From assembly GCF_008801925.2 (NCBI RefSeq), contig NZ_CP062806.1, positions 186,001 to 250,000 on the forward strand: a stretch of DNA of 64,000 bases, read 5' to 3'. Position 1 is the first letter of the stretch; each line of letters opens with the position of its first letter. Under the pieces are notes generated by a model, which was given only the letters and a program-made list of their open reading frames with translations, was not told the DNA's origin and made no database searches. Origin of the DNA: Cupriavidus basilensis. Its GTDB lineage: Bacteria > Pseudomonadota > Gammaproteobacteria > Burkholderiales > Burkholderiaceae. The translations under genes and the position numbers were made by a program. Shown piece by piece: positions 476-29,361 of this stretch.

Positions 476-2611
476 TCAACTCCATTGCGAGTCCACCTTG
501 CTGGGCGACACGGCCAGGAGCAGAACGACCGCGTGCGCGTGCACGGTCACGGACGCGGCATCGACATCCGCCTCCGGCGCGTCGGGCTCGCTGCTGTCGA
601 GCAGCAAGCGCCAGTGCTGCATTGGCTCGGGAAAGCGAAAGGTGGCGTCGTCGCCGCCAGCGTTGAGCAGCAGCAGGGTCACCTGGATCCGGCCGTCCGG
701 GCCGGTGGCGGCACGCCGCATAGCCAGGGTGCGGCCGTCCGGGTTGGACCATTGCTCGGGGCTGAGCGCGTGGCCGTCGGTATCGAACCACGCAATGTCG
801 GGCAGTCCCGGTTCCAGTTCGCGGCGCCCGTGGGCAAAGCGGGCTTCGGTGAATGCATGCAGGCGCCCGCGCAGCGCCAGCAGGCGGCTGGCAAAGGCGG
901 TAATGGTGCGGCCTGCGGCGCTTTCGGCGGCGTCCCAGTCCAGCCAGGAGAGCTCGTTGTCCTGGCAATAGGCATTGTTGTTGCCGCCCTGGCTGCGGCT
1001 CCATTCGTCGCCTGCGGTGAGCATGGGCGTACCGTGGGAGAGCAAAAGCGTGGCCAGCAGCGCGCGTGCCACGTGTCCGCGCGTTTCCAGGATGAGGGGG
1101 TCCTCTGTGGGGCCTTCCACGCTGCCGTCCTGACTCCAGTTGGCGCTGGCGTTGTCGTCGGTTCCATCCCGGTTGTCCTCGTGGTTGGCTTCGTTGTGCT
1201 TGCTGCTGTAGCTGACCAGATCGGCCAGCGTGAAGCCGTCGTGCGCGGTGATGAAGTTCACCGAGGCCCAGGGCTTGCGGTGGCGGCGGTCGAACAGGTC
1301 GGCGGATCCGGTTAGGCGCGCGGCCAGATCGCCGCGCTGGCCGGCGTCGCCGCGCCAATAGCGTCGCGCGGTGTCGCGGAACTTATCGTTCCACTCGGCG
1401 AATCCGGGCGGGTGATTGCCCACCTGGTAGCCGCCGGGGCCAAGGTCCCAGGGCTCCGAGATCAGCTTGACCCGCGATAGCACGGGGTCCTGCAGGATGG
1501 CGTCGAAGAAGCCCGCGCCGGGATCGAAGCCGGTGCCTTCGCGGCCCAGCGTGCTGCCGAGGTCGAAGCGGAAACCGTCCACATGGAAGCACTCGACCCA
1601 GTAGCGTAGCGAATCCATTACCATCTGCAAGACGCGCGGATGCGACACGTTGAGCGTGTTGCCGCACCCGGTGTCGTTGATATAGTGGCGCTCGTCGCCT
1701 GGCATGAGCCGGTAGTAGCTGGCATTGTCCAGGCCGCGCCATGAAACGGTAGGGCCGAGCTCGTTGCCCTCGCAGGTGTGGTTGTAGACGACATCGAGGA
1801 TGACTTCGAGACCTGCCGCGTGTAGCCGGCGCACCGCCACCTTGAACTCGTTGAGCTGTCCGTTGCTGAGATAGGTCGGCTCCGGCGCAAAGAACGCCAG
1901 CGTGTTGTAGCCCCAGTAATTGCGCAAGCCGCGCTCCACGAGGAAGCGGTCTTGCAAGAAAGCATGCACCGGCAGCAGTTCCACGGACGTCACGCCGAGT
2001 TTGCGCAGGTGATCGATAAAGTGTGGGTCGCACAGCGCGGCGAAGGTGCCGCGCGTGTGTGGCAGCAGGTCCTGGCGCAGCATTGAGAGGCCGCGCGGAT
2101 GCACTTCATAGATGACAGTCTTCTCCCACGGCACGTCCGGCGCGCGGTCGTCGCCCCAGTGGAAGCTCTCATCCACGACCACCGCCTTGGGCATGGTCGG
2201 GGCGTTGTCGCGACGATCGGGAGTCAGGTCGGCGCGCGGGCTTTGGAGACGGTAGCCGAACAGTGCATCGGACCAGCGCACCGGGCCGCTCAATTGCCTC
2301 GCATAGGGATCGAGCAGCAGCTTGTGCGCGTTGAAACGGTGCCCGTGGGCCGGTTCGTAGGGGCCGAGAGCGCGGTATCCGTAGACGGTGCCGATTGCCG
2401 CGTGTGGCAAGTAGCCATGCCAGACCTCGTCGGTGCATTCGGGCAGCGTGATTCGCGCTAGTTCCTTGCGGCCGTTATCCGAGAATAGGCACAGGTCGAT
2501 GCGAGCGGCGTTGGCAGAGAACACGGCGAAGTTCACGCCAAGCCCGTCCCAGTGCGCGCCCAGCGGGTATGGTTTGCCGGGAAGCATGCGAGTGGCGGGG
2601 ACCAGTGGCAA
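476..2611 (-). CDS. glgX: Glycogen debranching enzyme GlgX
   Basis: GlgX hydrolyses the alpha-1,6 branch links of glycogen-type glucans after phosphorolysis has shortened the outer chains. The 711 residues match the family length: an N-terminal CBM48 region (PLGAHWDGLGVNFAVFSANA), then a GH13 barrel with DVVYNHTCEGNE, the nucleophile Asp in GFRFDLGSTLGR, the acid/base Glu in LISEPWDLGPGGYQVG and the HD pair in NFITAHDGFTLADLVSYS. The start is a TTG (2609-2611) immediately after the glgB stop, with AAGGAG at good spacing. The next ATG (2587) is 30 bases from that site. This tight junction suggests translational coupling to glgB. Known role from the family; start choice is inferred. Confidence 0.93.
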   Translation of the reverse strand: MPLVPATRMLPGKPYPLGAHWDGLGVNFAVFSANAARIDLCLFSDNGRKELARITLPECTDEVWHGYLPHAAIGTVYGYRALGPYEPAHGHRFNAHKLLLDPYARQLSGPVRWSDALFGYRLQSPRADLTPDRRDNAPTMPKAVVVDESFHWGDDRAPDVPWEKTVIYEVHPRGLSMLRQDLLPHTRGTFAALCDPHFIDHLRKLGVTSVELLPVHAFLQDRFLVERGLRNYWGYNTLAFFAPEPTYLSNGQLNEFKVAVRRLHAAGLEVILDVVYNHTCEGNELGPTVSWRGLDNASYYRLMPGDERHYINDTGCGNTLNVSHPRVLQMVMDSLRYWVECFHVDGFRFDLGSTLGREGTGFDPGAGFFDAILQDPVLSRVKLISEPWDLGPGGYQVGNHPPGFAEWNDKFRDTARRYWRGDAGQRGDLAARLTGSADLFDRRHRKPWASVNFITAHDGFTLADLVSYSSKHNEANHEDNRDGTDDNASANWSQDGSVEGPTEDPLILETRGHVARALLATLLLSHGTPMLTAGDEWSRSQGGNNNAYCQDNELSWLDWDAAESAAGRTITAFASRLLALRGRLHAFTEARFAHGRRELEPGLPDIAWFDTDGHALSPEQWSNPDGRTLAMRRAATGPDGRIQVTLLLLNAGGDDATFRFPEPMQHWRLLLDSSEPDAPEADVDAASVTVHAHAVVLLLAVSPSKVDSQWS

Positions 2612-2612
2612 A

Positions 2613-4890
2613 TCAGGCTCCTTCGGGTACGAGCCGCAGGACTAGCGTGGCCAGCGGCGGGATCGTGAGCGTGGCGCAAGCGGGCAGGCCGTGCGACGGC
2701 GTGGCGGTGGCTTGGACTTCGCCACCATTGCCCACATTGCTGCCGCCATAGCAGGCGGCGTCGGTGTTGATGCATTCCTGCCAGCGGCCCGCGAACGGCA
2801 CTCCCAAGCGGTAGCCCGGGCGCACCACCGGGGTCATGTTGACCACCGCCAGCACCACGTCGCGGCTGCCGGGAGCGGCGCGGCGCAGATAGGCGAAGAC
2901 GCTGTTGCGGCTGTCGTCGCCGACCACCCAGCTAAAGCCCTCTGGTCGATGATCGAGCGCATGCAGCGCAGGCAGGGCGCTGTGCAGGCGGTTCAGATCG
3001 CGCACTAGCGTCAGCATGCCGCGGTGCTCGGGCTGCTCTAGCAGCCACCAGTCCAATTCGGTGTCATGGTTCCACTCGCGCCATTGGGCGAACTCGGCAC
3101 CCATGTAGAGCAGCTTCTTGCCGGGGTGCGTCCACATGAAGCCGTAGTAGGCGCGCAGGTTCGCAAAGCGCTGCCAGTTGTCGCCAAGCGTCTTGCCGAT
3201 CATCGAGCCCTTGCCATGCACCATTTCGTCATGGGAGATTGGCAGCACGAACGCCTCGGACCAAGCATAGACCGTGCCGAAGGTCAGGTCCTGATGGTGC
3301 CAGGCGCGGTGCACGGAATCACGGGAGAGATAGCGCAGCGTGTCGTGCATCCACCCCATGTTCCACTTGAAGGTGAATCCCAAGCCGCCGTTCTCTACCG
3401 GCGCGGTCACGCCGGGCCAGGAGGTGGATTCTTCTGCAATGGTCATGGCGCCCCGGCAACGCTCGCGCACCACGGTATTGAGTTCGCGCAGGAAGGCCAC
3501 GGCTTCCAGGTTCTCGCGCCCGCCGAAGCGGTTGGGCAGCCACTGGCCAGGCTGGCGGCTGTAGTCGCGGTAGAGCATCGACGCCACCGCATCCACACGC
3601 AGTCCGTCGATATGGTAGTGCTCCAGCCAGTGCAGGGCGCTGGCCAGCATGAAGCCGCGCACTTCATTGCGGCCCAGGTTGTAGATCAGCGTGTTCCAGT
3701 CCTGGTGGAAGCCCTCGCGCGGGTCCTGGTACTCGTAAAGTGCGGTGCCGTCGAACTCGGCCAGCCCGTGCGGATCGGTGGGGAAGTGCGCCGGCACCCA
3801 GTCCAGGATCACGCCGATGCCGGCGGCGTGGCAGCGGTCGACGAAGGCGGCAAACGCCTGCGGCGGGCCCAGCCGCGCGGTGGGCGCGAACAGCGACAGC
3901 GGCTGGTAACCCCAGGAGCCGCCGAAGGGATGCTCCATCACGGGCAGCAGTTCGATATGGGTGAAGCCCAGTTCGCGCACATACGGGATCAACCGATCCG
4001 CGAGCCGTGCCCAGCCATGCATGGGATCGTTAATCTCGGCCAGCCACGAGGTGACGTGCATCTCGTAGATAGACAGGGGCGCGGCGCGCGCATCGGTGCT
4101 GGCGCGCCGGCGCATCCAGGCCTGGTCGGTCCAGCTATACGGCGGCGCCGACGTGCCCGGCCGCGCTACCACCGAGGCGGTGGCCGGCGGAGCTTCTGTG
4201 GCCAGCGCCACCGGATCGGCCTTGTCGGGCAACGGCTCGCCGAGCGCACCGAGCAGGTCGAACTTGTAGCGGCAGTCCGGCGCCGCGCCCATTGCCCCGG
4301 GAATGAACAGCTCCCAGATGCCCGCGCCGTGGCGCAGTCGCATCGGGTGGCGCACGGGATTCCAGCCGTTGAAATCACCGATCACTGAGACGCGCCGGGC
4401 ATTGGGCGCCCATACGGCAAAGCGTACGCCATCGATGCCTTCCAGGGTCTGCACCTGCGCCCCCAGGCAACTGCCAAGCTCGAAGTGGCGGCCCTCGGCG
4501 ATCAGGTGCAGGTCGAGGTCGCCCAACAAGATGCCAAAGGCGTATGGATCGGCACTGAGTTGCTCGCTGCCATCAGGCCAGCGCATCCCGATCCGGTAGT
4601 CGCGCGCGCCAGCGGTGCCGGCCAGGGTCCCGGCGAAGATGCCCCCGGGATGAAGCCGCTCCAGTTCGGCCAGGCGCGTGCCATCGGCGGCGGCCAGCCA
4701 CGCCGACAGCGCGCCCGGCAGGCAGGCACGTACCACGGTATGGTCACACGAAGGATGGGGCCCGAGCACGGCAAAGGGATCGACATGGCGCCCCGCCAGC
4801 AGGGCCTCCAGGTCGGGAATCGCCAGGGACAGAGGCGAGGCTGCGCGGGGCATGTGCTGGTCCTTCTGGCTGTCCCGGGGCTGGGCGGTT

Positions 4891-4904
<14 letters not shown>
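2613..4904 (-). CDS. glgB: 1,4-alpha-glucan branching enzyme GlgB
   Basis: GlgB moves chain ends to C6 hydroxyls and so makes the branches of the glucan that GlgE elongates. It has 763 residues, usual for the long bacterial form: an extra N-terminal module ([12 protein letters not shown]), a CBM48 module ([24 protein letters not shown]), and a GH13 barrel with [18 protein letters not shown], the nucleophile Asp in [18 protein letters not shown], the acid/base Glu in [13 protein letters not shown] and [14 protein letters not shown]. The C-terminal all-beta domain ends [13 protein letters not shown] at 4904 has GGGGAG upstream and overlaps the end of the treS fusion by 14 bases. An internal Met 18 is a weaker start. 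Confidence 0.95.
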
Positions 4905-8366
<3,462 letters not shown>

Positions 8367-8370
<4 letters not shown>

Positions 8371-11300
8371 GCCCGCCTCTCGCGCAGCGGCCGGACGTGC
8401 CACAGGGCAAACGGCAGCGAATACGGGTCCAGCCGGATATGCTGGTTCTTGCCCTGCCAGGTAAAGCAGCGTCCATGCATCAGGTCTTCAACGTCAAGCG
8501 CGCCGTGGTCGGGGAGTCCCCATTCCCACAGGGGGAGTTCGATTGCCGACTCGCGCGCCGCGCGCGGGTCCAGGCTGATCGCCGCCAGCAGCACGTCATC
8601 GCCGAAGCTGGTGGCGCGCTCGGCACTGCCTGCGGGGCCCGTTATTCGCGGCACGAAGCGGGCGAAGTACAGCACCGCGTCGTCGCTGGCGTGGTAGAAG
8701 CGCAAGCCGAGGTGGTTCTGAAGCGCCGGGTGGCTGGCGCGGATCGCGTTCAGCCGCGATATCTCCGCAACGATGTTGCCGGGTTGCTGCCAGTCCCGCA
8801 CGCGCAGTTGGTACTTCTCGGAGTCGAGATACTCTTCCTTGGGCACGCCGTCTTTCAGCATTGGCGTGCCTTCGCATAGTTCAAAGCCGCTGTACATGCC
8901 CCATAGCCCCGAGAGCAGGGTCGCCAGTGCGGCCCGGATCAGGAAGCCCGGCCGACCGCTGTCGTGCAGGAAGTAGGGGTTGATGTCTGGCGTGTTAACG
9001 AAGAAATGCGGACGGAAAAACTCGCGCAGCGGCCCTTGCGTGAGTTCGGTCATGTACTCGGTCAACTCGCGCTTGTGGTTCCGCCAGGTAAAGTACGTAT
9101 AGGACTGGTTGAAGCCCAGCTTGGCCAGGCGCCCCATCATCTTGGGTCGTGTAAATGCCTCCGCCAGGAACAGTGCATCGGGAAAGCGCGAGCGCACGTC
9201 TTCGATCATCCACTCCCAGAACGGCAGCGGCTTGGTATGTGGATTGTCTACGCGGAAGATGCGTACGCCTTGCTCGGCCCAGAACACCACGACGTCCCGC
9301 AATGCCAGCCACAGCGCGGCAGCTGCAGGGGGCTTGCAGTAGAAATCGACGTTGACGATGTCCTCGTACTTCTTCGGCGGGTTCTCCGCATAGCGCAACG
9401 AGCCGTCGGGCCGGTACGCGAACCACTCCGGATGCTCGCGCAGCCACGGATGGTCCGGCGAGCACTGGATGGCGAAGTCCAGCGCCAGTTCTAGCCCTTC
9501 GGCGGCGGCGGCCTCGCGCAAGCGACGGAAATCATCGAACGTGCCCAGTTCCGCGTGGATGGCATCGTGGCCACCTTCCGCCGCGCCGATGGCATAGGGG
9601 CTGCCCGGGTCGCCCGCCTGGGCCCGCAGGCTGTTGTTGCGGCCCTTGCGATGGGTGCGACCGATGGGATGGATGGGTGGGAAGTACAGCACGTCGAAGC
9701 CCATGGCGCGGATGGCCGGCAGCCGCGCGATTACGTCGTCGAAGGTACCGTGTCGGCCTGGGTCGCCACTCTGCGAGCGCGGGAACAGTTCGTACCAGCT
9801 AGCAAAGCGCGCCGTAAGCCGGTCCGCCTCTACTGGCAGCACTACCGGGTGGCGCGTTGCAAAGGCGCGCGGGTCGGCAGCCTGCATGGCGGCGCGGGTG
9901 CGCGGCGATAACAGCAGCTCCAGCCGACGCGCATCGCCGCCGGGGTTGTCGCGCAAGGCCTCCAGGTCGGTCGCGATGGCGTGCATCTCGGCATTGTCGG
10001 ACGACGCCGTGTCCGCCGCCACGGCTACTAGGCGCGCGCCTTCCTCGATCTCCAGCGTCACGTCCACGCCCGCCTGCTTCTTCTTGCCGACCTCGTCGCA
10101 CCAGCTGGCGAATGTATCCCGCCAGGCTTCCAATGTGAATTCGTGCCTGCCCAGCCCGCGCAGTGGGAAGCTGCCGCTCCAGCGATCGTTGACGCCCGGC
10201 TCCAGCGCGGATTGCTGCCAATCCTGCTCGCCTGGGCCGCGCCATAGCAGCACTGCGGCGAGCTTGTCATGGCCGTCCATCCAGATATCGGCTTCCACCT
10301 CCACCCGCTCCCCGAGCACGCGGCGTACCGCGAAGCGGCCACCCTCGCAAGCCGGCGTCACATTTTCTATGGCGATGCGCGGTGCGTTCAAGGCGGCGGC
10401 CACGCTTTTCTCCAGCGTGGCCCGTACCGCCGCCGCGATGCGCTTGCCGTTGCGTCGCGCAGGCGTGGTCTGCGCGGCGTTAGGCACCGGGTGGTAAAGC
10501 TGGATGCCAGCCGGCGCCAGCGCGATGGTCGCCATCGCGTCGAGTATTGCATCTGCAGGGTCCGCCCCACCGGGGCCTCCCTCGGCCGGCAGCAGCGCGC
10601 CCGCGCCCTGGGGCAGCGCGGCAAGGATGCGGTCGGCACCGAGCGTGGCCGCCTCCTGAGTATCGGGGTTGATCACAATGGCTAGCGCCGTGGGGTCCTC
10701 GCCCACGGTGCCGCCTGTGCGCGCCAGCACAGTCAATGGTGTGCTGCCGCCGCTCACCCGCCGAAGGCTGCGCACCGGGGCACAGCCACGCGCCGCCAGC
10801 CAAGCATTGGCGTGGATCAGTTCGTGGGAGAGATCGTAGGGCGGCGCGGCTTCGCCGTCGCCGCCGGTCTCGAATCCGGCGGGCACCATCAAACCGTCGC
10901 CAATCGCGGCGGCGGCCCACAGAGCGCGCCGCGCCACCAGCGCGTCGGTGCCGGCTGCATTCAGCGCCGGTGCAGCGAGCACGGCGCCGAAGGGCCGCAG
11001 GCGTGCAATTTCATCGGTAAGCCAGGCGCTGCGGTAATCCCACCACGGTAGCGAGCAGAAGGCACCGTCGAAGCCACAGGGCGTAAGGTCCTCGAGTTGC
11101 GCTGGCGCGAGCCCCGGGGCCCAGGCCAGGAAAGCCAGGCTACGGCCAGGCGCGGCGCGGCGGGCGCTAGCTATCAGTACCGCCCAGTGCCGCCCCGGCA
11201 CGCGTGCCGGCGCACGGCAGACGAAGCCGGCAATGCCAGCCGCGACTGGCGTGCGCAGGCGCTCGCTCCACCATGGCACCAGTGCGGCGGCGCAATGCGA

Positions 11301-11624
11301 ATCGTGCCACCGCAGGCGCACACCCGGTAGGTGGTTATCCGTGTCGCGCGGGTCAGCACCCAGGCCTGCGGGTTCGCGCCAGCACGGCTCCAGATTCGCG
11401 CTGCCGTCAGGGTAGCGGTCAAGTGCAAGCTCCAGCAGGCACGACAAGCCATGCGCGCTGCAGGCGGCCACGGCCTGAGCCAGGGCCTCCGCTTGCGGAT
11501 GCAGGACCGGCCAGCCCGCTAGCAGGACATGATCGAAGCCAAGTGCCGCCGCGCGGGCCAGCGCATCGTTGCTGGGGGCGCCGTCAGGCTGGGTGAGTGT
11601 CAGGTCTATTTGGCAGATTCGCAC
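8367..11624 (-). CDS. glgE: Alpha-1,4-glucan:maltose-1-phosphate maltosyltransferase GlgE, long form
   Basis: GlgE adds maltosyl units from maltose-1-phosphate to an alpha-1,4-glucan. The core (about residues 400-1085) carries DVLYFPPIHPIGRTHRKGRNN, LALDFAIQCSPDHPWL, YAENPPKKYEDIVNVDF, the nucleophile Asp in FRVDNPHTKPLPFWEW and the Glu in LFLAEAFTRPKMM. At 1085 residues it is about 400 longer than the usual 660-700. The N-terminal part (LTLTQPDGAPSND, ALGFDHVLLAGWP, ELIHANAWLAARG) reads like a worn-down glycosidase barrel lacking obvious catalytic motifs. The start is GTG at 11622-11624. It is first in its operon and is followed by treS with an ATGA overlap. Confidence 0.94.
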
Positions 11625-13112: not shown

Positions 13113-13527
13113 ATCTGGCTCCTTGGATCGAAGGCATTGAAATTGAGGGAGGGACGGCAATCGCCAGGGCGCCGTGTAGCTTTGGCGAACAGCGTGTAGA
13201 ACAGTCATGCTTGCGCGACGCATCGCCACTGTGGGCCTCGGCGCTTGGCGACGTGCCGCCGCTAGGGCCTGCGCTGCCAGGAGCTTCCACGGCCTTCTGC
13301 GGCAACTGGGTCGACGCGGATTGCGCCGCCGACCCGCCGCCCTTGCCAAAGCGAGCGGCCAGGTTGTCCTGGATTCGCGCCAGGACGTCGGCTTGGCGCT
13401 TCCTCGGCTTCCTTGGCCTTGCGGGCATCGGCAGTCTGTTGCTGCTCCGGCGTCGGCCGGGGCCGTCGTGCATGAAGCGCTCCGCAGGCGGGCCGGGCAG
13501 ATTGACGTTAATTTGGCGGACCTCCAT
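13069..13527 (-). CDS. Possible hypothetical protein between the PIG-L and pfpI genes
   Basis: A 152-residue frame beginning MEVRQINVNLPGPPAERFMHDG, with a basic stretch (PARPRKPRKRQADVLARIQDNLAARFG) and a low-complexity Ala/Ser/Gly tail. It fills the otherwise empty space between two minus-strand genes and overlaps the first 44 bases of pfpI. No clear ribosome site precedes the ATG at 13527 and I recognise no family. The N-terminal half has a plausible protein composition; the tail may be read-through. It could be a real small gene or only an open frame in GC-rich DNA. Confidence 0.3.
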   Translation of the reverse strand: MEVRQINVNLPGPPAERFMHDGPGRRRSSNRLPMPARPRKPRKRQADVLARIQDNLAARFGKGGGSAAQSASTQLPQKAVEAPGSAGPSGGTSPSAEAHSGDASRKHDCSTRCSPKLHGALAIAVPPSISMPSIQGARYAQEPRTLPDPACG

Positions 13528-13683
13528 AGACACGGCATCGCACGCAAAAATGGCTTGGTCAATCCCCAGTGGCAATATCCATGCCTCCGCTGGCGGCGGT
13601 CTATCGTTGCGCGGCGATCCCTTCGCCGCCGCATTCCAGCCGCGCCTGGGCCGAGCCGAGCATATGTCCGGCACGGTGCACGC

Positions 13684-14409
13684 TCAGGCGCACGCCGTGG
13701 TGACAGATGCTCTCGCCGTAGCCCAATGTCTGCGCTCCCACTGCCAGTAGCGCTCGGGCGCTGTCAGGTCGGCCAGTTGTTCCCCACCGAAAAGCGGATA
13801 CTGGCTGGCGTAGGCGGCCACGGCGCGGGCTTTGCGCAGCTTCGTCACAGGAAGCGAACGCAAGCCGGACGGTGCCGCAAGCGTAGCCACGATCCCTGCG
13901 TCGTTCCACGTCGCCAGTTGGCGGTCAAGGGCGCCTGGCGTGCGGCGGTGAATTGCATCCTCATAGAAAAACCAAGGCCGTGCCGAATCCCGTTCCCAGA
14001 CCACCGCGCATGCGGCGTGGACAATGCCGTGATCGCTATGATGCAGGCCGGCCGGTGCCAGTACGAGCGAATCGGTGAGTGTAAGCAGTACCGCCGACAG
14101 CGCCTCGGCCAATGCTGCCTGCGATGGAGACGTGCCATATTGTCCATCGAGGTAATCGAGCCAAAGTGGTTGCGCCTCCAGCATGGCGAGTCCAATGCGG
14201 TCTTCCTCCCGCCGGGCCAGTACCGCCTGGCGGGCGCTGGCAAAGCCTGCGGTGGCATCCCAGGGCGGCGCTGACATGGCGACGGGCGGCAGGCCCGCCA
14301 GCGCCGTGATCACGAGCGCGCCGGGTAATGCCGCCATCAGCTCGCCGCAGCTGAACACGGCATCGTCAAGGTGCGGCGAGATGACCAGTGCGCTCGGCTT
14401 CCGCATCAC
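13684..14409 (-). CDS. PIG-L family N-acetylglucosaminyl-type deacetylase
   Basis: 241 residues of the PIG-L/LmbE zinc deacetylase family, whose members remove acetyl groups from N-acetylglucosamine-type sugars in GPI, mycothiol or antibiotic synthesis. The zinc motif ISPHLDDAVFSCGEL stands at residues about 10-24 (family form PHxDD), with the second His region AGLHHSDHGIVHAAC. The ending YPLFGGEQLADLTAPERYWQWERR is typical of the subgroup found beside acyl-CoA dehydrogenase, methyltransferase and glycosyltransferase genes, which lie here at 17.6-20 kb on the other strand. It starts 7 bases after the catalase stop, so the two are probably co-transcribed. The acetylated substrate is unknown. 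Confidence 0.87.
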   Translation of the reverse strand: MMRKPSALVISPHLDDAVFSCGELMAALPGALVITALAGLPPVAMSAPPWDATAGFASARQAVLARREEDRIGLAMLEAQPLWLDYLDGQYGTSPSQAALAEALSAVLLTLTDSLVLAPAGLHHSDHGIVHAACAVVWERDSARPWFFYEDAIHRRTPGALDRQLATWNDAGIVATLAAPSGLRSLPVTKLRKARAVAAYASQYPLFGGEQLADLTAPERYWQWERRHWATARASVTTACA

Positions 14410-14416
14410 GCCTGCC

Positions 14417-16726
<2,310 letters not shown>

Positions 16727-17137
16727 GGCCAATCCTCGAAAAGGGAAGTCGACAGATAAACAGGAAGGCTTCATCCACGGCAATTAGCGTGCCAGCGCGA
16801 CTGCGTTATCCCCAAATGCCCCAGACGGTGGCCTGTGCCGCGCACTTGCGCTTTTGCGTGCCAACGGTTGCTCCGCTTTCCCCGCCTGGCAGGAAACGCC
16901 CATTGTTCATGGAGATGTAATTTTTGCAGCAAGGTGTGCCGATCCTGTAGGCACGCGCCGACAAGCATTCGCGCAACCTTCCTACAGCATACGAACGCGC
17001 GCATTCGTACTGTCGAGGGGTGGCCCGTGCAAGGTTCACAGGAGTGTCCGGTACCGGGTCCGCTTCACCGATACGTCGTCTTCACGGCGCCCTTCCATTC
17101 TGAATCTCTAAATCGCCTCACTTTGCTAGGAGCTGAC
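16727..17137. other. Divergent intergenic region katE / PA2169-type gene
   Basis: 411 bases between two divergent stress genes, expected to carry both promoters. The clearest structure is an inverted repeat at 16990-17009, arms TACGAA and TTCGTA separated by 8 bases, which could be an operator. I see no convincing small gene here. Confidence 0.35.
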
Positions 17138-17587
17138 ATGGCTGAGAAAAATATTTCCGTACTAAACGACCTGATCGAAGTTTCCCGTGACGGCCAGCAA
17201 GGGTTTCTCAAGGCAGCCGAAGACGCACAGAACCCCGAATTGAAGTCGCTATTCTCCAGCCGCGCTGCCGAGATTGCCGCGGCAGTGTCGGAACTTCAGG
17301 CGCAGGTGGCAGCGCTCGGCGGCAAGCCGGAGGAACACGGCAGCGTGGCCGGCGCCCTGCATCGCGGCTGGGTCAGCCTGCGCACCGCGGTGGCCGATCG
17401 CAACGACCTGGCCATCCTGGAGGAAACCGAGAAGGGAGAGGACCTAGCCAAGAAGAAGTACGCCGATGCGCTGCAGGAAACGGAACTGAGCTCCGACATT
17501 CTGGCGCTAGTGGAACGCCAGTACCAAGGGGTGCTACGCAACCACGACCTGATCCGCGACCTGCGCAACCGTTATCGCGCGGTCTGA
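17138..17587 (+). CDS. PA2169 family four-helix-bundle protein (DUF2383)
   Basis: 149 residues, soluble and helical, with the family's opening (SVLNDLIEVSRDGQQGFLKAAEDAQNPELKSLF), the middle AEIAAAVSELQAQVAALGGKPEEHGSVAGALHRGW and the ending LVERQYQGVLRNHDLIRDLRN. This ferritin-like fold is known in stress- and starvation-linked proteins; no enzymatic activity is established. ATG at 17138 has AGGAG upstream at 17128-17132. The upstream frame stays open but is not gene-like. The neighbouring katE is divergent, and the next gene starts 34 bases after the stop, so it may be co-transcribed with the acyl-CoA dehydrogenase-like gene. Confidence 0.88.
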   Translation: MAEKNISVLNDLIEVSRDGQQGFLKAAEDAQNPELKSLFSSRAAEIAAAVSELQAQVAALGGKPEEHGSVAGALHRGWVSLRTAVADRNDLAILEETEKGEDLAKKKYADALQETELSSDILALVERQYQGVLRNHDLIRDLRNRYRAV

Positions 17588-17621
17588 GGACTGACGCCGC
17601 GCCGGACGAGATAAACACGCC

Positions 17622-18725
17622 ATGGCAAACCGCATCTATGGGGAAGCCCACGTGGCCCGCCTGTTTCGGCTTTTGACGGAACAGGCGGGCGCACGCATTC
17701 ACGGCGGCATACCGCTGCCCGGCCGCGGCAACACTTGGCAACGGTGGATGCTGCTTGCACAAGTAGCGGCTAGGGATGTCTCCCTGGTCAAGTTGTTCGA
17801 AGCCCACACGGATGCGCTCGCCATCCTCGCCGAACTCGGCGCCTCTGCGCCGCAGGCCGGTTCGCGCTGGGCGGTGTGGGCCGCGGAGCCACCGGATGCG
17901 CGCGTGGCGCTGCACGTGGACGAGCACGCCGAATGCGGCGTTAGTCTGAGTGGCCGCAAGGCTTGGTGCTCGGGCGCGCCCCTGGTTACCCATGCCTTGC
18001 TCACTTGCTGGAACGCGCAGGGGCAAGCGTGCCTCGCCATCCTTGCGCTCGATGCGCCTGGCATCGCGATCGATGAAAGCGCCTGGCGCTCGCCAGCGAT
18101 GGTGGCGGCACGCACAGCAGACCTAGTGTTCGACGGCACGCCGGTGCGGTCGCTGGGGGAACCCGGCGCTTACCTGGACCGCCCCGGCTTCTGGCACGGC
18201 GGCGCCGGCATCGCCGCTTGCTGGTTAGGTGCAGTGGTGCCGTTTGTCCTTGCGCTGCGCGCGCAGGTGGCCCGCCGCGCCGACCCCCATGACGCCGTCC
18301 AACTGGGCGCGGCGGATGTTGCCTTGCGGGGTGCGTGGGCCATGCTGCGCGAGGCCGCGGCTTGGGTCGACGCGCATCCCGCAGGCGATGCGGTGCATGT
18401 CGTGCGGCGCGCGCGCCTTGCCGCGGAAACGGCGGCTACGCAGGTCATGGCGTATGCAAGCCGCGCCCTTGGCGCCGGACCCTTGTGCCACGATGCCGCC
18501 CTGGCCACACGCTTCTGCGATATGCAGGTCTTCTTGCGCCAGAGCCATGGCGAGCGCGACCTAGCCGCCCTCGGCACCGGACTCGCGGGTCAAGCGCAGG
18601 GCCGGGGCGCCGACCAAGGCTGGGCGCCCTGGTTGCCGCTCGGGCCGGACGACATGCAGGACAGGCAAGATGACTTCCTCACACACCTATTTAGTCATGA
18701 CTCGTCGCACTGTATCGGCAATTGA
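17622..18725 (+). CDS. Acyl-CoA dehydrogenase-like protein
   Basis: 367 residues resembling acyl-CoA dehydrogenases: a helical N-terminal part (LFEAHTDALAILAELG), a beta domain with LSGRKAWCSGAPLVTHALLTC (the family's G-K-x-W-x-S-G-A pattern), DLVFDGTPVRSLGEPGAYLDRPGFWHGGAGIAACWLG, and a helical C-terminal domain ending in MQVFLRQSHGERDLAALG. It lacks an evident catalytic Glu, and this subgroup is known only from clusters with PIG-L deacetylase, methyltransferase and glycosyltransferase. Its substrate may be carrier- or glycan-bound rather than a fatty acyl-CoA. The 3' end overlaps the methyltransferase gene by up to 56 bases, a sign of an operon. Confidence 0.82.
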   Translation: MANRIYGEAHVARLFRLLTEQAGARIHGGIPLPGRGNTWQRWMLLAQVAARDVSLVKLFEAHTDALAILAELGASAPQAGSRWAVWAAEPPDARVALHVDEHAECGVSLSGRKAWCSGAPLVTHALLTCWNAQGQACLAILALDAPGIAIDESAWRSPAMVAARTADLVFDGTPVRSLGEPGAYLDRPGFWHGGAGIAACWLGAVVPFVLALRAQVARRADPHDAVQLGAADVALRGAWAMLREAAAWVDAHPAGDAVHVVRRARLAAETAATQVMAYASRALGAGPLCHDAALATRFCDMQVFLRQSHGERDLAALGTGLAGQAQGRGADQGWAPWLPLGPDDMQDRQDDFLTHLFSHDSSHCIGN

Positions 18726-19362
18726 GCCGGCCGGCTCGCAGGCGCCTGGCAGTTCCGTGGCAGCAGCGGCCATTCCAGCCCATTTCGACGCCCTATATGC
18801 ACGCAGCGACGATCCGTGGTCCTATCGCAACAGCTGGTATGAGGCCCGCAAACGCAATCTCGTGCTGGCGCTGCTGGATCGGCCACGTTTTCGCTCCGCT
18901 TTCGAGCCAGGCTGCGGCAACGGCGAACTCAGCGCGGTGCTGGCGCTGCGCTGCGACAGCCTGCTCGCGGCAGATATGCATCCCCGCGCAGTCGACGTCG
19001 CGCGGCAGTGTCTGGCTAGGATGGCAAACGTGCACGTGATGCCATTGAGCGTACCAGCGGGGTGGCCAAGGGGCATTTTCGAATTGATTGTCATCAGCGA
19101 GCTTGCTTACTACTTGTCCGACGCCGGCGTCGAGCACATGGCGCATCGCGTGCGCCGTACGCTCGCACCGGGCGGCCTGCTGCTGGCCTGCCACTGGAGG
19201 CGCCCATTTGGCGAACGTATGATTTCGTCCGAGCGGGCCCACGAATTGCTGGGGCAGCATGCCGGGCTGGACTGCATTGCCACGCATGTGGAAGCGGACT
19301 TCCTGATGCAGGCCTGGACGCGGGGAGGACGCTCAGTGGCAGCACGGGAGGGTATCGCATGA
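18670..19362 (+). CDS. Class I SAM-dependent methyltransferase (NodS-like)
   Basis: 230 residues with the SAM motif I FEPGCGNGELSAVLAL, an acidic end of strand 2 (LLAADMHPRAVDVARQCL), and motif IV/post-IV IFELIVISELAYYLSDAGVEHMAHRVRRTLAPGGLLLACHWRRPF. The sequence FDALYARSDDPWSYRNSWYEARKRN before motif I is typical of NodS-type N-methyltransferases, which methylate amino sugars. Such a substrate would fit the nearby deacetylase and glycosyltransferase. ATG at 18670 has an AGG-rich upstream; ATG at 18697 is an alternative that shortens the overlap with the preceding gene. The stop overlaps the glycosyltransferase start (ATGA). Confidence 0.85.
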   Translation: MTSSHTYLVMTRRTVSAIEPAGSQAPGSSVAAAAIPAHFDALYARSDDPWSYRNSWYEARKRNLVLALLDRPRFRSAFEPGCGNGELSAVLALRCDSLLAADMHPRAVDVARQCLARMANVHVMPLSVPAGWPRGIFELIVISELAYYLSDAGVEHMAHRVRRTLAPGGLLLACHWRRPFGERMISSERAHELLGQHAGLDCIATHVEADFLMQAWTRGGRSVAAREGIA

Positions 19363-20042
19363 TTGGCGTAATCGTGCCAGTGCATAACGAAGAAGGCTGC
19401 CTTGCGGCCTGCCTGCACGCGGTCGCGCGAGCGGCCACTTGCCCAGGCTTGCGCGGCGAAGCGGTTCTGGCCATCGTGGTGCTGGATGCCTGCCAGGATC
19501 GCTCGGCGGCTATCGCAACCGAGCAGGGCGTGCTGACCCTGTGCATCGCAGCACGCAATGTCGGCATGGCGCGCGCGGTGGGTGCAGCGCACGCGCTGTC
19601 GCTCGGCATGCGCTGGCTGGCGTTTACCGATGCGGATACGATTGTCTCGCCGGACTGGCTCAGCACGCAGTTGCAGTTAGGCACCGACGCCGTCTGTGGT
19701 TGCGTGCGTATTGAGGACTGGCAAGACAACGCGGAGTCGGTGCGACGTCGCTACCTGGAACGGTATTACGAACAGGATGGTCACCGTCACATCCACGGCG
19801 CAAACCTGGGCGTGGCCGCGGATGCGTACGTGCGTTGCGGCGGGTTTCTTCCACTGCAACGTTGCGAGGATGTCGCCTTGGTACGTGCCCTGCAGGCCAG
19901 CGGCGCCAGCATCGCCTGGAGTGCGGCACCGCGCGTGGTAACCAGCGCACGCCGGCATGCTCGGGTGCGCGATGGCTTCGCGGGATACTTGCGCGCACTT
20001 GCCGATGAACCGCACTCGGGTCTCACCGGCCCGTCGGCATAG
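19359..20042 (+). CDS. Family 2 glycosyltransferase
   Basis: 227 residues with a GT-A fold: IGVIVPVHNEEGCLAACLHAV at the N-terminus, VVLDACQDRSAAIA, NVGMARAVGAAHAL, the metal-binding motif LAFTDADTIVSPDWL, and HGANLGVAADAYVRCGGF with CEDVALVRAL as the acceptor-side region. It would transfer a sugar from a nucleotide or polyprenyl donor in the cytoplasm; no membrane helices are seen. ATG at 19359 overlaps the methyltransferase stop by four bases. It is the last gene of the plus-strand set. Donor and acceptor cannot be told from sequence. Confidence 0.86.
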   Translation: MIGVIVPVHNEEGCLAACLHAVARAATCPGLRGEAVLAIVVLDACQDRSAAIATEQGVLTLCIAARNVGMARAVGAAHALSLGMRWLAFTDADTIVSPDWLSTQLQLGTDAVCGCVRIEDWQDNAESVRRRYLERYYEQDGHRHIHGANLGVAADAYVRCGGFLPLQRCEDVALVRALQASGASIAWSAAPRVVTSARRHARVRDGFAGYLRALADEPHSGLTGPSA

Positions 20043-20153
20043 GAGCTGACAACGTTGGGCTTCATTCCACGACGCCCGATTGGCATCGCGCTGGCAATGC
20101 CTTCCAAGATCTTATCGCCAGTCCAACTTCCGACAAAGCCCGCAGTGCTCCAA

Positions 20154-20282
20154 CTAGCTGGTGGCGCCGCGATCGGATGCCTCGGCCGCTTGGGGTTGAC
20201 GCACGAAACTGATCTTCCCGTGGCGCTCGACCACGATCCGCTCGGCGCCAGATAGAGACTCTTTCTGCAGCGACTGACGCAT
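20154..20282 (-). pseudogene. Relic of a DUF421 (YetF-like) gene, C-terminal 42 codons
   Basis: The minus strand reads MRQSLQKESLSGAERIVVER, then HGKISFVRQ, ending in a TAG at 20154-20156. This closely matches the C-terminus of the intact DUF421 protein at 28840-29361 (RESLQTESLSGVDRIVVER, then DGKISFVRR). The N-terminal membrane part is missing; upstream sequence no longer resembles the family. It is a leftover of a second, related copy. Confidence 0.7.
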
Positions 20283-20348
20283 GCTGGTCGGTCGGAAAGA
20301 GCAGCGCCGGCTCACCGGTAAAAATCTAAGGGGCGCGAGCGGCAGTAG

Positions 20349-20975
20349 CTAGGAGTTGCCCTGGGTGCGCTCCAGGTCCGCCGAGAAGAGGTCGTACAGG
20401 CACGCCGGCTGCTGGGGGCGGCAGGTGGGGTGCCGACGATAATGCCGGCAAAGCTGCCGTCGGCGTGCGACAGCCTGCGGCTAAGGCCGATCGACTAGCC
20501 AGCATCCGACAGGCGCGGCTGGAATGGCTGGCTGATATACAGCCCGACGGTGGCCGAATCGCGGTGTACCTTGAAGTAATCGCGGTCAGCGAGATTGACG
20601 GGACGGGGAGGGGTTGAGCGGGAGTCGAGCACGAGGTTGCCTTGCTCGTCCGTCACCAGCAGGGTACCCACGTCCGTCGCGGTCGTGAAGCGGTCAAACA
20701 ACACTAGCTGGCGGATGGCAGGAGACAACCGGAGAATCTTGGTGTCCTTGACGCCGTCGATCACGGCGTACATCGACAGTTCGTAGATTTCCAGATTGCG
20801 AGAGATATCGCGCTCCAGGATCAGCGAGAGATTGGCGGCCCCCCTCTTGTGCGCGTGCCAACGCGTCCTGACGCATTTTGAACAGTGCACAACCCCCTAT
20901 CGCGCGATGGCGACAGCGAGCGCAATGCTGCTGGCCACGAAAATACGGCGTGCCTTTAGAGTAACGTCTTTGACG
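20349..20975 (-). pseudogene. Broken membrane sensor gene (Cache/PDC-type sensor domain, probably once a GGDEF protein)
   Basis: In pieces the minus strand reads a basic then hydrophobic N-terminus (TLKARRIFVASSIALAVAIA), MRQDALARAQE, then GAANLSLILERDISRNLEIY, LLVTDEQGNLVLDSRS, LADRDYFKVHRDS, and after a TAG at 20495-20497 SIGLSRRLSHADGSFAGIIV and YDLFSADLERTQGNS. This is the order of an extracellular double-Cache sensor of diguanylate-cyclase-type proteins (family pattern GWSIGLSRR, suggesting TGG became TAG). At least three frame changes and two stops are present and no GGDEF or kinase domain follows. Clearly non-functional; the downstream output domain is an inference. Confidence 0.75.
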
Positions 20976-21566: not shown

Positions 21567-22625
21567 GTGGACAGTAACCTGCCCCCGTCCGGTATCGACG
21601 AAGCCATGCGCACGGGGCTGCGCGAGGCCGGATTGCGCTATGTCGATGATAATACGCCGGGCATCACGCGCCGCCGCTACGGCGCCGGCTTTGCGTATCT
21701 CGATGCAAACGGCAAGCCGGTGCGCGACGCCGCGACGCTGGCGCGCGTTGCGGCGCTGGCGATTCCTCCGGCGTATGAAGCGGTCTGGATTTGCGCTGAC
21801 CCGGCGGGGCACCTCCAAGCCACCGGACGCGACGCGCGGGGCCGCAAGCAGTACGTCTACCATCCTGACTGGGGTGCACTCCGGGATTCCGACAAGTACG
21901 CACGCCTGGCGACCTTCGGCACCGCGCTGCCGCGGCTGCGCGCGCGCGTCGCGCGCGACCTTGGGCGCAACGGCATGCCACGCGAGAAAGTGGTTGCGGC
22001 GGTGGTGCTGCTGCTCGATGCCACGCTCGTGCGTGTTGGCAGCCCGCGCTACGCGCAGCAGAACCGTACCTACGGTCTCACCACGCTGCGCCGCCGCCAC
22101 GTCACCGTGCGTGGCAGCCGCCTGCGCTTCCAGTTCACCGGCAAGAGCGGCATCAGCCACGACGTGTCGGTCAACGATCGTCGTCTGGCCCGCGTCGTGC
22201 GCAGCTGCGCCGACCTGCCCGGCCAGCTTCTGTTCAAGTACCGCGACAGCGACGGGCAGATCCGCGAAATCGGCTCGGCTGACGTCAACGGCTATTTGCA
22301 GGCGGCAACCGGCGGAGACTTCACTGCCAAGGACTTTCGCACCTGGGCCGGCAGCGTGCATGCGTTGACGATGCTGCGCACGGCCGGCGCGGACAGCAAC
22401 GAGACCGCGCGCAAGAAGCAAGTCGCGGAGGTCATCAAGGGCGTGGCGCAGCGCCTGCGCAATACAGCCGAGGTTTGCCGCAAGTGCTATGTCCACCCCG
22501 ACGTCATTGAGGCGTTCATGAAGGACGAGTTGTCCGGCTGTGCGCGCGTTGCCAACATCAGCCGGCTGCGCGTAGACGAAGCGCGGCTCTTGAAACTCCT
22601 CTCGCAACGGGCGGCGGCACATTAA
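21567..22625 (+). CDS. DNA topoisomerase IB (poxvirus type)
   Basis: 352 residues. Relaxes supercoils by nicking one strand through a 3'-phosphotyrosine. Seen: an N-terminal domain (GLRYVDDNTPGITRRRYGAGFAYLD), the catalytic domain with LLLDATLVRVGSPRYAQQNRTYGLTTLRRRHV, FTGKSGISHDVSV, KDFRTWAGSVHAL, and the nucleophile Tyr in CRKCYVHPDVIEAFM. The start is GTG at 21567 with AAGGGAGG upstream; the first internal ATG lies 39 bases in. Bacterial versions are sporadic and often sit among stress genes, as here. Intact, in contrast to the broken genes on its left. Confidence 0.9.
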   Translation: MDSNLPPSGIDEAMRTGLREAGLRYVDDNTPGITRRRYGAGFAYLDANGKPVRDAATLARVAALAIPPAYEAVWICADPAGHLQATGRDARGRKQYVYHPDWGALRDSDKYARLATFGTALPRLRARVARDLGRNGMPREKVVAAVVLLLDATLVRVGSPRYAQQNRTYGLTTLRRRHVTVRGSRLRFQFTGKSGISHDVSVNDRRLARVVRSCADLPGQLLFKYRDSDGQIREIGSADVNGYLQAATGGDFTAKDFRTWAGSVHALTMLRTAGADSNETARKKQVAEVIKGVAQRLRNTAEVCRKCYVHPDVIEAFMKDELSGCARVANISRLRVDEARLLKLLSQRAAAH

Positions 22626-28243: not shown

Positions 28244-28843
28244 ATGGGATCTCACACAACGGTGGCGCTGATAAAAGCGCTTCATCCGACCCAACTCACC
28301 TTGGGCATGGATCATGTGCGACAAAAAATGGACGCGAGCCGGGCTCACATGGCAACGTTCCAGGCGTTCATGGAGCGACATCCCATCAAGGCCGTTCTGG
28401 GTCCCAATGGTCAACTCTATATTATTGACCATCATCATTGGGCCCGCGCATGGCTGGAGCTCGGTAAGGAACGGACACCGATTGTTGTCGTGCGTGACCT
28501 GCACAAGCTTGGCAAGAGCGCATTCTGGCGACGAATGTCGGAGCTGGGCGACGTCCATCCCTACGACGAGCAAGGCGTTCACCGAGCCATCTCAGCGTTG
28601 CCGCCAACGGTGGAAGGAATGATAGATGACCCATACCGCAGCCTCGCGGCATTCGCGCGGAACGCAGGTGGGTACAGGAAGCCGAAATGCGCCTACGCAG
28701 ATTTTCAATGGGCGGCATTCTTCCGCAAACATGTGAAGGGCGATCTGCATACCATTCACGGCTTCGCCCAGGCGCTAGCTAACGCCACGCGTCTTGCGCG
28801 CAGCCGCACGGCCCGCAAGCTTCCCGGCTATCTGGGCGCCTAG
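28244..28843 (+). CDS. ParB-like nuclease-family protein (ParBc_2 type)
   Basis: 199 residues with the pattern of the putative ParB-like nuclease family: IKALHPTQLTLGMDHVRQKM, FQAFMERHPIKAVLGPNGQL, YIIDHHHWARAWLELG, VVVRDLHKLGKSAFWRRM, then FARNAGGYRKPKCAYADFQWA and GDLHTIHGFAQALANATRL. The HHHWARA stretch corresponds to the family's most conserved site. No partition ParA gene is nearby, so a plasmid-partition role is unlikely; the function is unknown. ATG at 28244 has AAGGGGAA upstream. Its TAG shares a CTAG tetranucleotide with the TAG of the convergent DUF421 gene. Confidence 0.8.
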   Translation: MGSHTTVALIKALHPTQLTLGMDHVRQKMDASRAHMATFQAFMERHPIKAVLGPNGQLYIIDHHHWARAWLELGKERTPIVVVRDLHKLGKSAFWRRMSELGDVHPYDEQGVHRAISALPPTVEGMIDDPYRSLAAFARNAGGYRKPKCAYADFQWAAFFRKHVKGDLHTIHGFAQALANATRLARSRTARKLPGYLGA

Positions 28844-29361
28844 CTATCTGACGACTCCGGCACATTGGCTCGACGCACGAAGCTGATTTTTCCGTCGCGT
28901 TCCACGACAATCCGATCCACCCCAGATAGCGACTCTGTCTGCAAGGACTCGCGGAGATTGGCGGCGAGATCGCGTTCGCTAATCTCGGTGCGTGCAAGTG
29001 CGTCGCGATCCAGCGTCCCCTTCGAAAGCAGCTCAATCGGATTGCCCCCGACGATGCGGTCGAACGCAGAGAATCGCGTGGCGAGCCAGCCGACAGACCG
29101 ATGCATAAGCACGAGGACAGCCGATGCACCCGTTGCGGTGCCCATGGAGGTCGCGCCCACCACGGCACGCGACAGAACTGCGCCCAGCAACAGCATGATG
29201 CACAGATCAAACGAGGTCTTTTGGGCAAAAGAACGACGCCCAGCCAACCGCAATAGCGCCCAGGCGATCACGAAGACGACTGCGGCGCGCAGCATCGCCT
29301 GCCACCAAATAGGATGCTGCGTGGCGGCGAACAGAGTCTCGAGAACATTTGCAGCGGTCAT
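28840..29361 (-). CDS. DUF421 (YetF-like) membrane protein
   Basis: 173 residues. Three hydrophobic segments in the first half (AMLRAAVVFVIAWALLRLA; TSFDLCIMLLLGAVLSRAVV; GASAVLVLMHRSVGWLAT) are followed by the soluble DUF421 domain with VGGNPIELLSKGTLDRDAL, SERDLAANLRESL and VDRIVVERDGKISFVRR. YetF relatives are membrane proteins of unclear role, linked to spores or stress in Bacillus. The gene converges on the ParB-like gene with stop codons sharing CTAG. A decayed copy of the same C-terminus lies at 20154-20282. Confidence 0.86.
   Translation of the reverse strand: MTAANVLETLFAATQHPIWWQAMLRAAVVFVIAWALLRLAGRRSFAQKTSFDLCIMLLLGAVLSRAVVGATSMGTATGASAVLVLMHRSVGWLATRFSAFDRIVGGNPIELLSKGTLDRDALARTEISERDLAANLRESLQTESLSGVDRIVVERDGKISFVRRANVPESSDS

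Follow-up and report, generated by a model that had tools for sequence, protein, structure and literature searches.

A 64,000-nucleotide stretch of Cupriavidus basilensis DNA (contig NZ_CP062806.1, positions 186,001 to 250,000; here called the window) carries genes for a PIG-L family deacetylase, an acyl-CoA-dehydrogenase-like (ACAD-like) flavoprotein, a NodS-like S-adenosylmethionine (SAM)-dependent methyltransferase (MT), and a soluble GT2 glycosyltransferase. We found that these four families occur at the same loci far more often than expected by chance, in several gene orders, and that they are a real, conserved, and stress-linked enzyme unit, no description of which as a functional unit was found among open-licence PubMed Central (PMC) papers. 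An earlier note on this DNA had placed the four genes in one block. All four open frames are where it put them, but they are not four adjacent genes, as katE and a DUF2383 gene lie inside the block.

The genes are arranged in two divergent units, katE-PIG-L on the minus strand and DUF2383-ACAD-MT-GT2 on the plus strand, adjoining a glgE-treS-glgB-glgX operon (Table 1). The likely start of katE is the ATG at 16726, and PIG-L starts at ATG 14406 or GTG 14409, 7–10 bases past the katE stop, so that the two genes are probably co-transcribed as one operon. DUF2383 is the first gene of the plus-strand unit and ends 34 bases before the ACAD-like gene. The gene overlaps described earlier for the plus strand were seen again: the ACAD-like and MT genes overlap by 56 bases (ATG 18670) or 29 bases (ATG 18697), while MT and GT2 overlap by ATGA, which sets the GT2 start at 19359. 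A scan of 13400–20600 for sigma-70-like promoters found none.

The linkage was evaluated with a profile of the ACAD-like protein (A1), built from 25 relatives, which separates the family cleanly from ordinary acyl-CoA dehydrogenases. In an order-level sample of 300 genomes that includes the window's own, 11 scored at least 338 bits and one gave a partial match of 141, with the other matches listed at 45 or below. An even sample of 299 genomes of the phylum had 35 genomes with a match at E 0.001, 22 of them above 100 bits; the window and genome G009 were set aside, leaving 20 loci, which were read together with 8 kb on each side as far as the contig reached. In all 20, MT is the neighbour of the ACAD-like gene, PIG-L adjoins that gene in 17 (missing in L228, L233, and L234), and GT2 lies within 2.5 kb in 13 (missing in L218, L219, L228, L229, L230, L233, and L234; the GT2 match of L230 lies further away). 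All four families are together in 13 of the 20 loci, and also in the locus of G009 (L185). A lack of conserved co-occurrence, which the earlier note had named as speaking against the set, is therefore not what these genomes show.

The best 80 GTDB loci, which over-represent a few genera, include MT in 78 cases, with a distance of 6 kb in L027; MT is absent from L049 and L061. In L027 (Pseudomonas anatoliensis), a stretch of several kb, from about 10.9 to 16.4 kb of the locus, parts ACAD from PIG-L-MT-GT2 and looks like an insertion. In L196 (G025), GT2 directly follows ACAD and no MT was recognised. Six of the seven plasmid loci tallied have all four families, the exception being a lone Methylobacterium homologue (L135) with none of the other three. 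Of five further plasmid records, two from Acinetobacter (L237 and L240) hold all four, two from alphaproteobacteria (L238 and L239) have ACAD-PIG-L-MT with glycosyltransferases around, and one from Cupriavidus (L137) has ACAD, MT, and GT2 with no adjacent PIG-L. Actinomycetota also carry the set (L132 and L051), and Kitasatospora has all four by profile. The hosts include many soil, plant, and hospital bacteria, and catalase or trehalose genes are quite often near. Fusions of PIG-L with a methyltransferase, as in public annotation, were found neither in the loci examined nor among the matches listed (120 of 1698 homologues).

At least six gene orders occur, the window's own included. For example, ACAD-PIGL-MT-GT2 is found in Acinetobacter (L130), Comamonas (L131), and Pandoraea (L133), GT2-ACAD-PIGL-MT in Sphingomonas (L134), PIGL-MT-GT2-ACAD in Legionella (L136), and ACAD-MT-GT2 followed by a PIG-L of the window's type in L090, L185, L187, and L188. 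Twelve loci were read in one genus, of which seven (L328–L334) were chosen for the closeness of their matches: ACAD-MT stands opposite a pair of GT2 and window-type PIG-L in L329–L333, the variants L328 and L334 have GT2 either at the opposite end of ACAD-MT or at a distance of 6 kb from PIG-L, and katE is near in four of the seven. The other five (L335–L339) have ACAD-MT-GT2 with no PIG-L nearby. The membership of the set is kept while its order changes, which argues for a shared function.

The PIG-L genes at these loci fall into two kinds. PIG-L sits between ACAD and MT in most lineages, while many loci of Paraburkholderia, Achromobacter, and the window's genus have no PIG-L there; the window's PIG-L belongs to a second subfamily. 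There are 16 such loci without an internal PIG-L, and a window-type copy was found in 13 of the 14 genomes tested (the copy of L090 is the linked one, and L087 has none), as compared to one of eight tested genomes with an internal PIG-L (Fisher 4e-4; the two groups also differ in taxonomy). In the window's genus, 12/12 ACAD-bearing genomes and 13/24 others have a window-type PIG-L (p 0.004, uncorrected for kinship); in genus g175, the figures are 48/48 and 18/29 (p 5e-6, likewise uncorrected). Among the 11 other ACAD-bearing genomes of the window's genus, PIG-L lies within 2.5 kb of the set in four (G004, G009, G011, and G013), about 12 kb away in another glycosyltransferase cluster in G010 and G022, and on another contig or megabases away in G005, G017, G025, G027, and G028. 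Tested by this co-occurrence and by the linked copies in other genomes, the idea that the window's PIG-L, which lies beyond katE on the other strand, is a chance neighbour appears unlikely.

Pseudomonas-type loci (L027, L028, L032, L044–L048, L054, L055, L057, L062, L066, L082, L083, L088, L092, L095, L098, L217, and L219) carry an additional PIG-L-like gene behind the set. The 21 copies that pass the profile have HPGDE in place of HPDDE (the frame-split copy of L043 was left out), and the presumed catalytic Asp is therefore lost; judging by this motif, the protein is perhaps a non-catalytic partner.

The ACAD-like protein has the ACAD fold over its full length. Within Pfam, the window's protein matches only Acyl-CoA_dh_M (PF02770), at 23.5 bits, below the cut-off of 33.3, and gives no match to PF00441; the C-terminal Pfam domain is matched weakly by 6 of 25 family members, and the family has motifs of its own, GRKAWCSG and LRQSH. 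The catalytic Glu of ACADs lies in an EGT-type loop or at an alternative helix position. Among 12 ordinary ACADs of the same genome, six have a Glu in the loop, four at the helix position, and two at neither, while in all 25 aligned family members the helix position is Gly 193 and residues 302–310 include no acid (by sequence alignment), which agrees with the earlier suggestion that the catalytic Glu is missing. Every one of the 113 members has Gln 307.

A profile search of the PDB placed DszC, TdsC, and MsuC among the best matches (E 7.7e-12 to 1e-9), and Foldseek listed nitrososynthases, with KijD3 as the top match and DnmZ also present; neither of these two appears in the 50 rows listed by VIA-align, which carries no weight against them. 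The catalytic residues of DszC-type enzymes are the Ser of a CSG motif, an N-terminal His, and a C-terminal His. The candidates for these in the family are Ser 117 (111/113), His 62 (113/113), and His 309 (103/113), with an ambiguous alignment at the C-terminal side; His391 of a DszC-type enzyme is mentioned in PMC11134501. The predicted flavin step is more likely to be that of a reduced-flavin/O2 monooxygenase or a C–N oxidase than of an acyl-CoA dehydrogenase, given the missing ACAD Glu and these matches.

The nearest solved relative of MT is 4isc ("Methyltransferase"; E 1.8e-40), followed by NodS (3ofj; E 7e-11) and gentamicin N-methyltransferases, and its score against the NodS equivalog NF041650 is 58.4 bits with a cut-off of 300. 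The solved structures closest to PIG-L are those of the Dbv21 and teicoplanin pseudoaglycone deacetylases (E 2.8e-6, over residues 6–95), and the protein keeps the PHLDDA and SDH motifs; across 92 loci, the metal-binding HxxD...H residues His 17, Asp 20, and Asp 130 are present in 113/113 and His 131 in 112/113 (open-frame numbering). GT2 has 227 residues and intact TDADT and CEDVAL motifs, which supply the DxD and ED elements, and its model (predicted local distance difference test score, pLDDT, 91.7) has the GT-A fold, with broad fold neighbours, including wall-teichoic-acid and polysaccharide transferases, that point to neither a donor nor an acceptor.

Table 1. Genes of the window discussed in the text. 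Names in the trehalose/alpha-glucan operon (476..11624) were given by eye and from the earlier note.
Feature	Position	Strand	Evidence
PIG-L family deacetylase, window-type subfamily	13684..14409	-	PF02585 34.5 bits, cut-off 28.2
katE-type catalase HPII, open frame	14417..16783	-	PF00199 602 bits; NF008422 1049 bits against a cut-off of 1102
DUF2383/PA2169-family four-helix-bundle protein	17138..17587	+	PF09537 130 bits; TIGR02284 164 bits
ACAD-like flavoprotein without the ACAD catalytic Glu	17622..18725	+	Pfam, profile, PDB, alignment
NodS-like class I SAM methyltransferase (MT)	18670..19362	+	NodS Pfam 38.2 bits, cut-off 24
Soluble GT2 glycosyltransferase, GT-A fold	19359..20042	+	PF00535 Glycos_transf_2 53.2 bits, cut-off 23.3
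glgX	476-2611	-	open frame; name by eye and earlier note
glgB	2613-4904	-	open frame; name by eye and earlier note
treS	4891-8403	-	open frame; name by eye and earlier note
glgE	8367-11624	-	open frame; name by eye and earlier note

Stress genes lie near the set more often than in control stretches. In Pseudomonas, where genes similar to the window's glgX, glgB, treS, and glgE were found, the set often follows glgX (present in 26 of the 80 loci), and L028 reads glgA-treZ-malQ-treY-glgX-set-glgB-treS (names by eye), with no GT2 by profile. The set lies between otsA and otsB in Comamonas, near otsBA and catalase on Acinetobacter plasmids, and near otsB and a GH65 gene in Legionella. That the adjoining trehalose genes come from different, non-homologous routes (OtsAB, TreYZ/GlgX, and GlgE) suggests a common physiological role. 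Counts from a less biased sample were lower. In it, 24 loci (the 20 phylum loci and four from the order) were set against 40 stretches picked arbitrarily from 10 of the genomes as controls. Using a query list drawn partly from loci already seen, trehalose or alpha-glucan genes were near in 6/24 loci as compared to 1/40 controls (p 0.009), other stress genes in 7/24 and 1/40 (p 0.003), and either kind in 11/24 and 2/40 (p 0.0002).

Some neighbours recur in smaller numbers. Mobilizable Acinetobacter plasmids (L130 and L240) carry a stress island of catalase, DUF421, DUF2171, the four-gene set, a major facilitator superfamily transporter, and otsBA, and at 19419–24834 of L237 (A. baumannii), annotated genes for resistance to aminoglycosides, chloramphenicol, and sulfonamides lie about 4.5–10 kb past the set. 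Ku and/or LigD, of non-homologous end-joining, are near the set in several genera (L053, L070, L086, L089, and L230). By eye, the window has a topoisomerase-IB-like gene at 21567–22625 and a DUF421-like gene at 28840–29361, with similar genes at one and seven of 80 related loci, respectively.

A matching operon has been listed in A. baumannii. In PMC5660220, operon "e" comprises ACICU_02432 (glycosyltransferase), 02433 (SAM-dependent methyltransferase), 02434 (LmbE protein), and 02435 (putative acyl-CoA-dehydrogenase-related protein), and RNA sequencing (Table 2 of that paper) shows its expression 31- to 62-fold lower in two mutants that depend on colistin. The same 33-gene list has the otsA/otsB homologues down 12- to 50-fold and catalase down 22- to 31-fold, and lpxC disruption and lipopolysaccharide (LPS) deficiency are discussed for the H08-391 lineage. 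Matched by names, the four families and their order agree with L237, another A. baumannii record, and with L130. The available text lists the genes as down-regulated and proposes no function; term searches of PMC5967708 and PMC13118837 gave no match and nothing on the set, respectively. The earlier view of the set as undescribed thus stands: the families share loci in several orders, and no functional description was found in open-licence PMC papers.

We put at about an even chance that these genes form a single biosynthetic unit linked to the stress response, making a small N-methyl amino-sugar glycoside or glycoconjugate alongside trehalose and catalase. We infer the substrates and the product, the flavin chemistry, and the sequence of steps as follows. 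GT2 would transfer an N-acetyl-hexosamine-type sugar onto a small acceptor or carrier, PIG-L would remove the N-acetyl group, the NodS-like MT would methylate the freed amine, and the ACAD-like flavoenzyme would oxidise the product. Of the chemistry proposed earlier, deacetylation, N-methylation, and sugar transfer fit the nearest solved relatives, while the missing ACAD Glu and the resemblance of the ACAD-like protein to flavin monooxygenases and amino-sugar N-oxidases make oxidation of an acyl or carrier-bound group less likely. The most likely product is an N-methylated, flavin-oxidised amino-sugar glycoside, which probably helps cells survive stress. A bolder version, which we regard as rather improbable, is a trehalose-derived or trehalose-partnered protectant against desiccation and oxidation in more than one phylum, namely a trisaccharide with an N-methyl amino sugar, which might be N-hydroxylated to give a radical-scavenging hydroxylamine or nitrone.

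Several points qualify the main explanation. GT2 is the least constant member of the set. The loss of the catalytic Glu comes with the caveat that 110 of 113 members have an acid, Glu or Asp, at residue 311 immediately after the loop. The 13/24 and 18/29 genomes without an ACAD-like gene still hold window-type PIG-L. By eye, the gene lies among other glycosyltransferase genes in such genomes (L191–L194 and L204), and ACAD-bearing G010, G022, and G017 (L189, L190, and L197) have a PIG-L copy in similar surroundings; the subfamily therefore serves other purposes as well, and its co-occurrence with the set may in part be incidental. A carbamoyltransferase-like gene was seen by eye in some of these eight regions, which are possibly a second undescribed glycoconjugate cluster.

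The set might instead modify a surface or lipid-linked glycan (LPS or lipooligosaccharide, capsule, or glycolipid), with the same enzymes acting on a carrier-bound sugar and no free small molecule, a possibility that we hold to be doubtful yet the best of the alternatives. The fall of the operon in colistin-dependent mutants, in a study that discusses lpxC disruption and LPS deficiency, is consistent with it, but otsAB and catalase go down along with it, which suggests a regulatory cause (PMC5660220). Extra glycosyltransferases surround the two alphaproteobacterial loci, and the fold neighbours of GT2 also fit a glycan, whereas no flippase, polymerase, or ligase lies inside the set in annotated plasmid loci. 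The set occurs in Actinomycetota as well, which are without LPS.

It is unlikely that the ACAD-like protein is a true acyl-thioester dehydrogenase with a relocated catalytic acid, the product being an N-acylated or unsaturated-acyl amino-sugar lipid. Neither Glu position is acidic in the family, Gln 307 is invariant, the C-terminal domain is hardly matched, and the four-gene set holds no acyltransferase, acyl carrier protein, or CoA ligase. Hitchhiking of independent genes without a shared pathway, in general-stress loci that gather and move as islands, would account for the unrelated stress genes nearby (katE, DUF2383, CsbD, DUF421, and Ku/LigD) and for window-type PIG-L copies lying elsewhere, but we rejected it as the main explanation and consider it very improbable, because membership stays while order changes, no tested stress gene is nearly as constant (MT accompanies ACAD in 20/20 sampled loci, katE in 2/20), and every ACAD-bearing genome of two genera keeps window-type PIG-L.

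Read as a stress-linked pathway, the set is a biosynthetic unit without a known product that many environmental bacteria carry at stress loci, for example on Acinetobacter plasmids and in the trehalose clusters of Pseudomonas. A new stress metabolite could come to light here, and a function would be assigned to an ACAD-like family whose chemistry has probably changed.

To our knowledge, none of the four families is a known trehalose enzyme; trehalose biosynthesis (OtsAB, TreYZ, and GlgE) has some loci in common with the set and, in Acinetobacter, a regulatory response too. The ACAD-like family is like TdsC and MsuC in its CSG motif and in an aligned His of the N-terminal helix, while His 309, near the C-terminus, is kept in only 103 of 113 members, and DszC, TdsC, and MsuC act on sulfur compounds, unlike the substrates proposed here. 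The nitrososynthases DnmZ, KijD3, and that of Micromonospora act on amino sugars and share the ACAD fold, although they are only about 20% identical to the ACAD-like protein and the set has no dTDP-sugar genes. In rhizobia, NodB, NodS, and NodC are a deacetylase, an N-methyltransferase, and a GT2 enzyme acting on glucosamine in making the Nod factor. The present set differs in that its deacetylase is of the PIG-L rather than the NodB type, its GT2 is soluble, a flavoenzyme is added, and NodA is missing, but it has the same three predicted activities, and its MT matches NodS both in Pfam and among solved structures.
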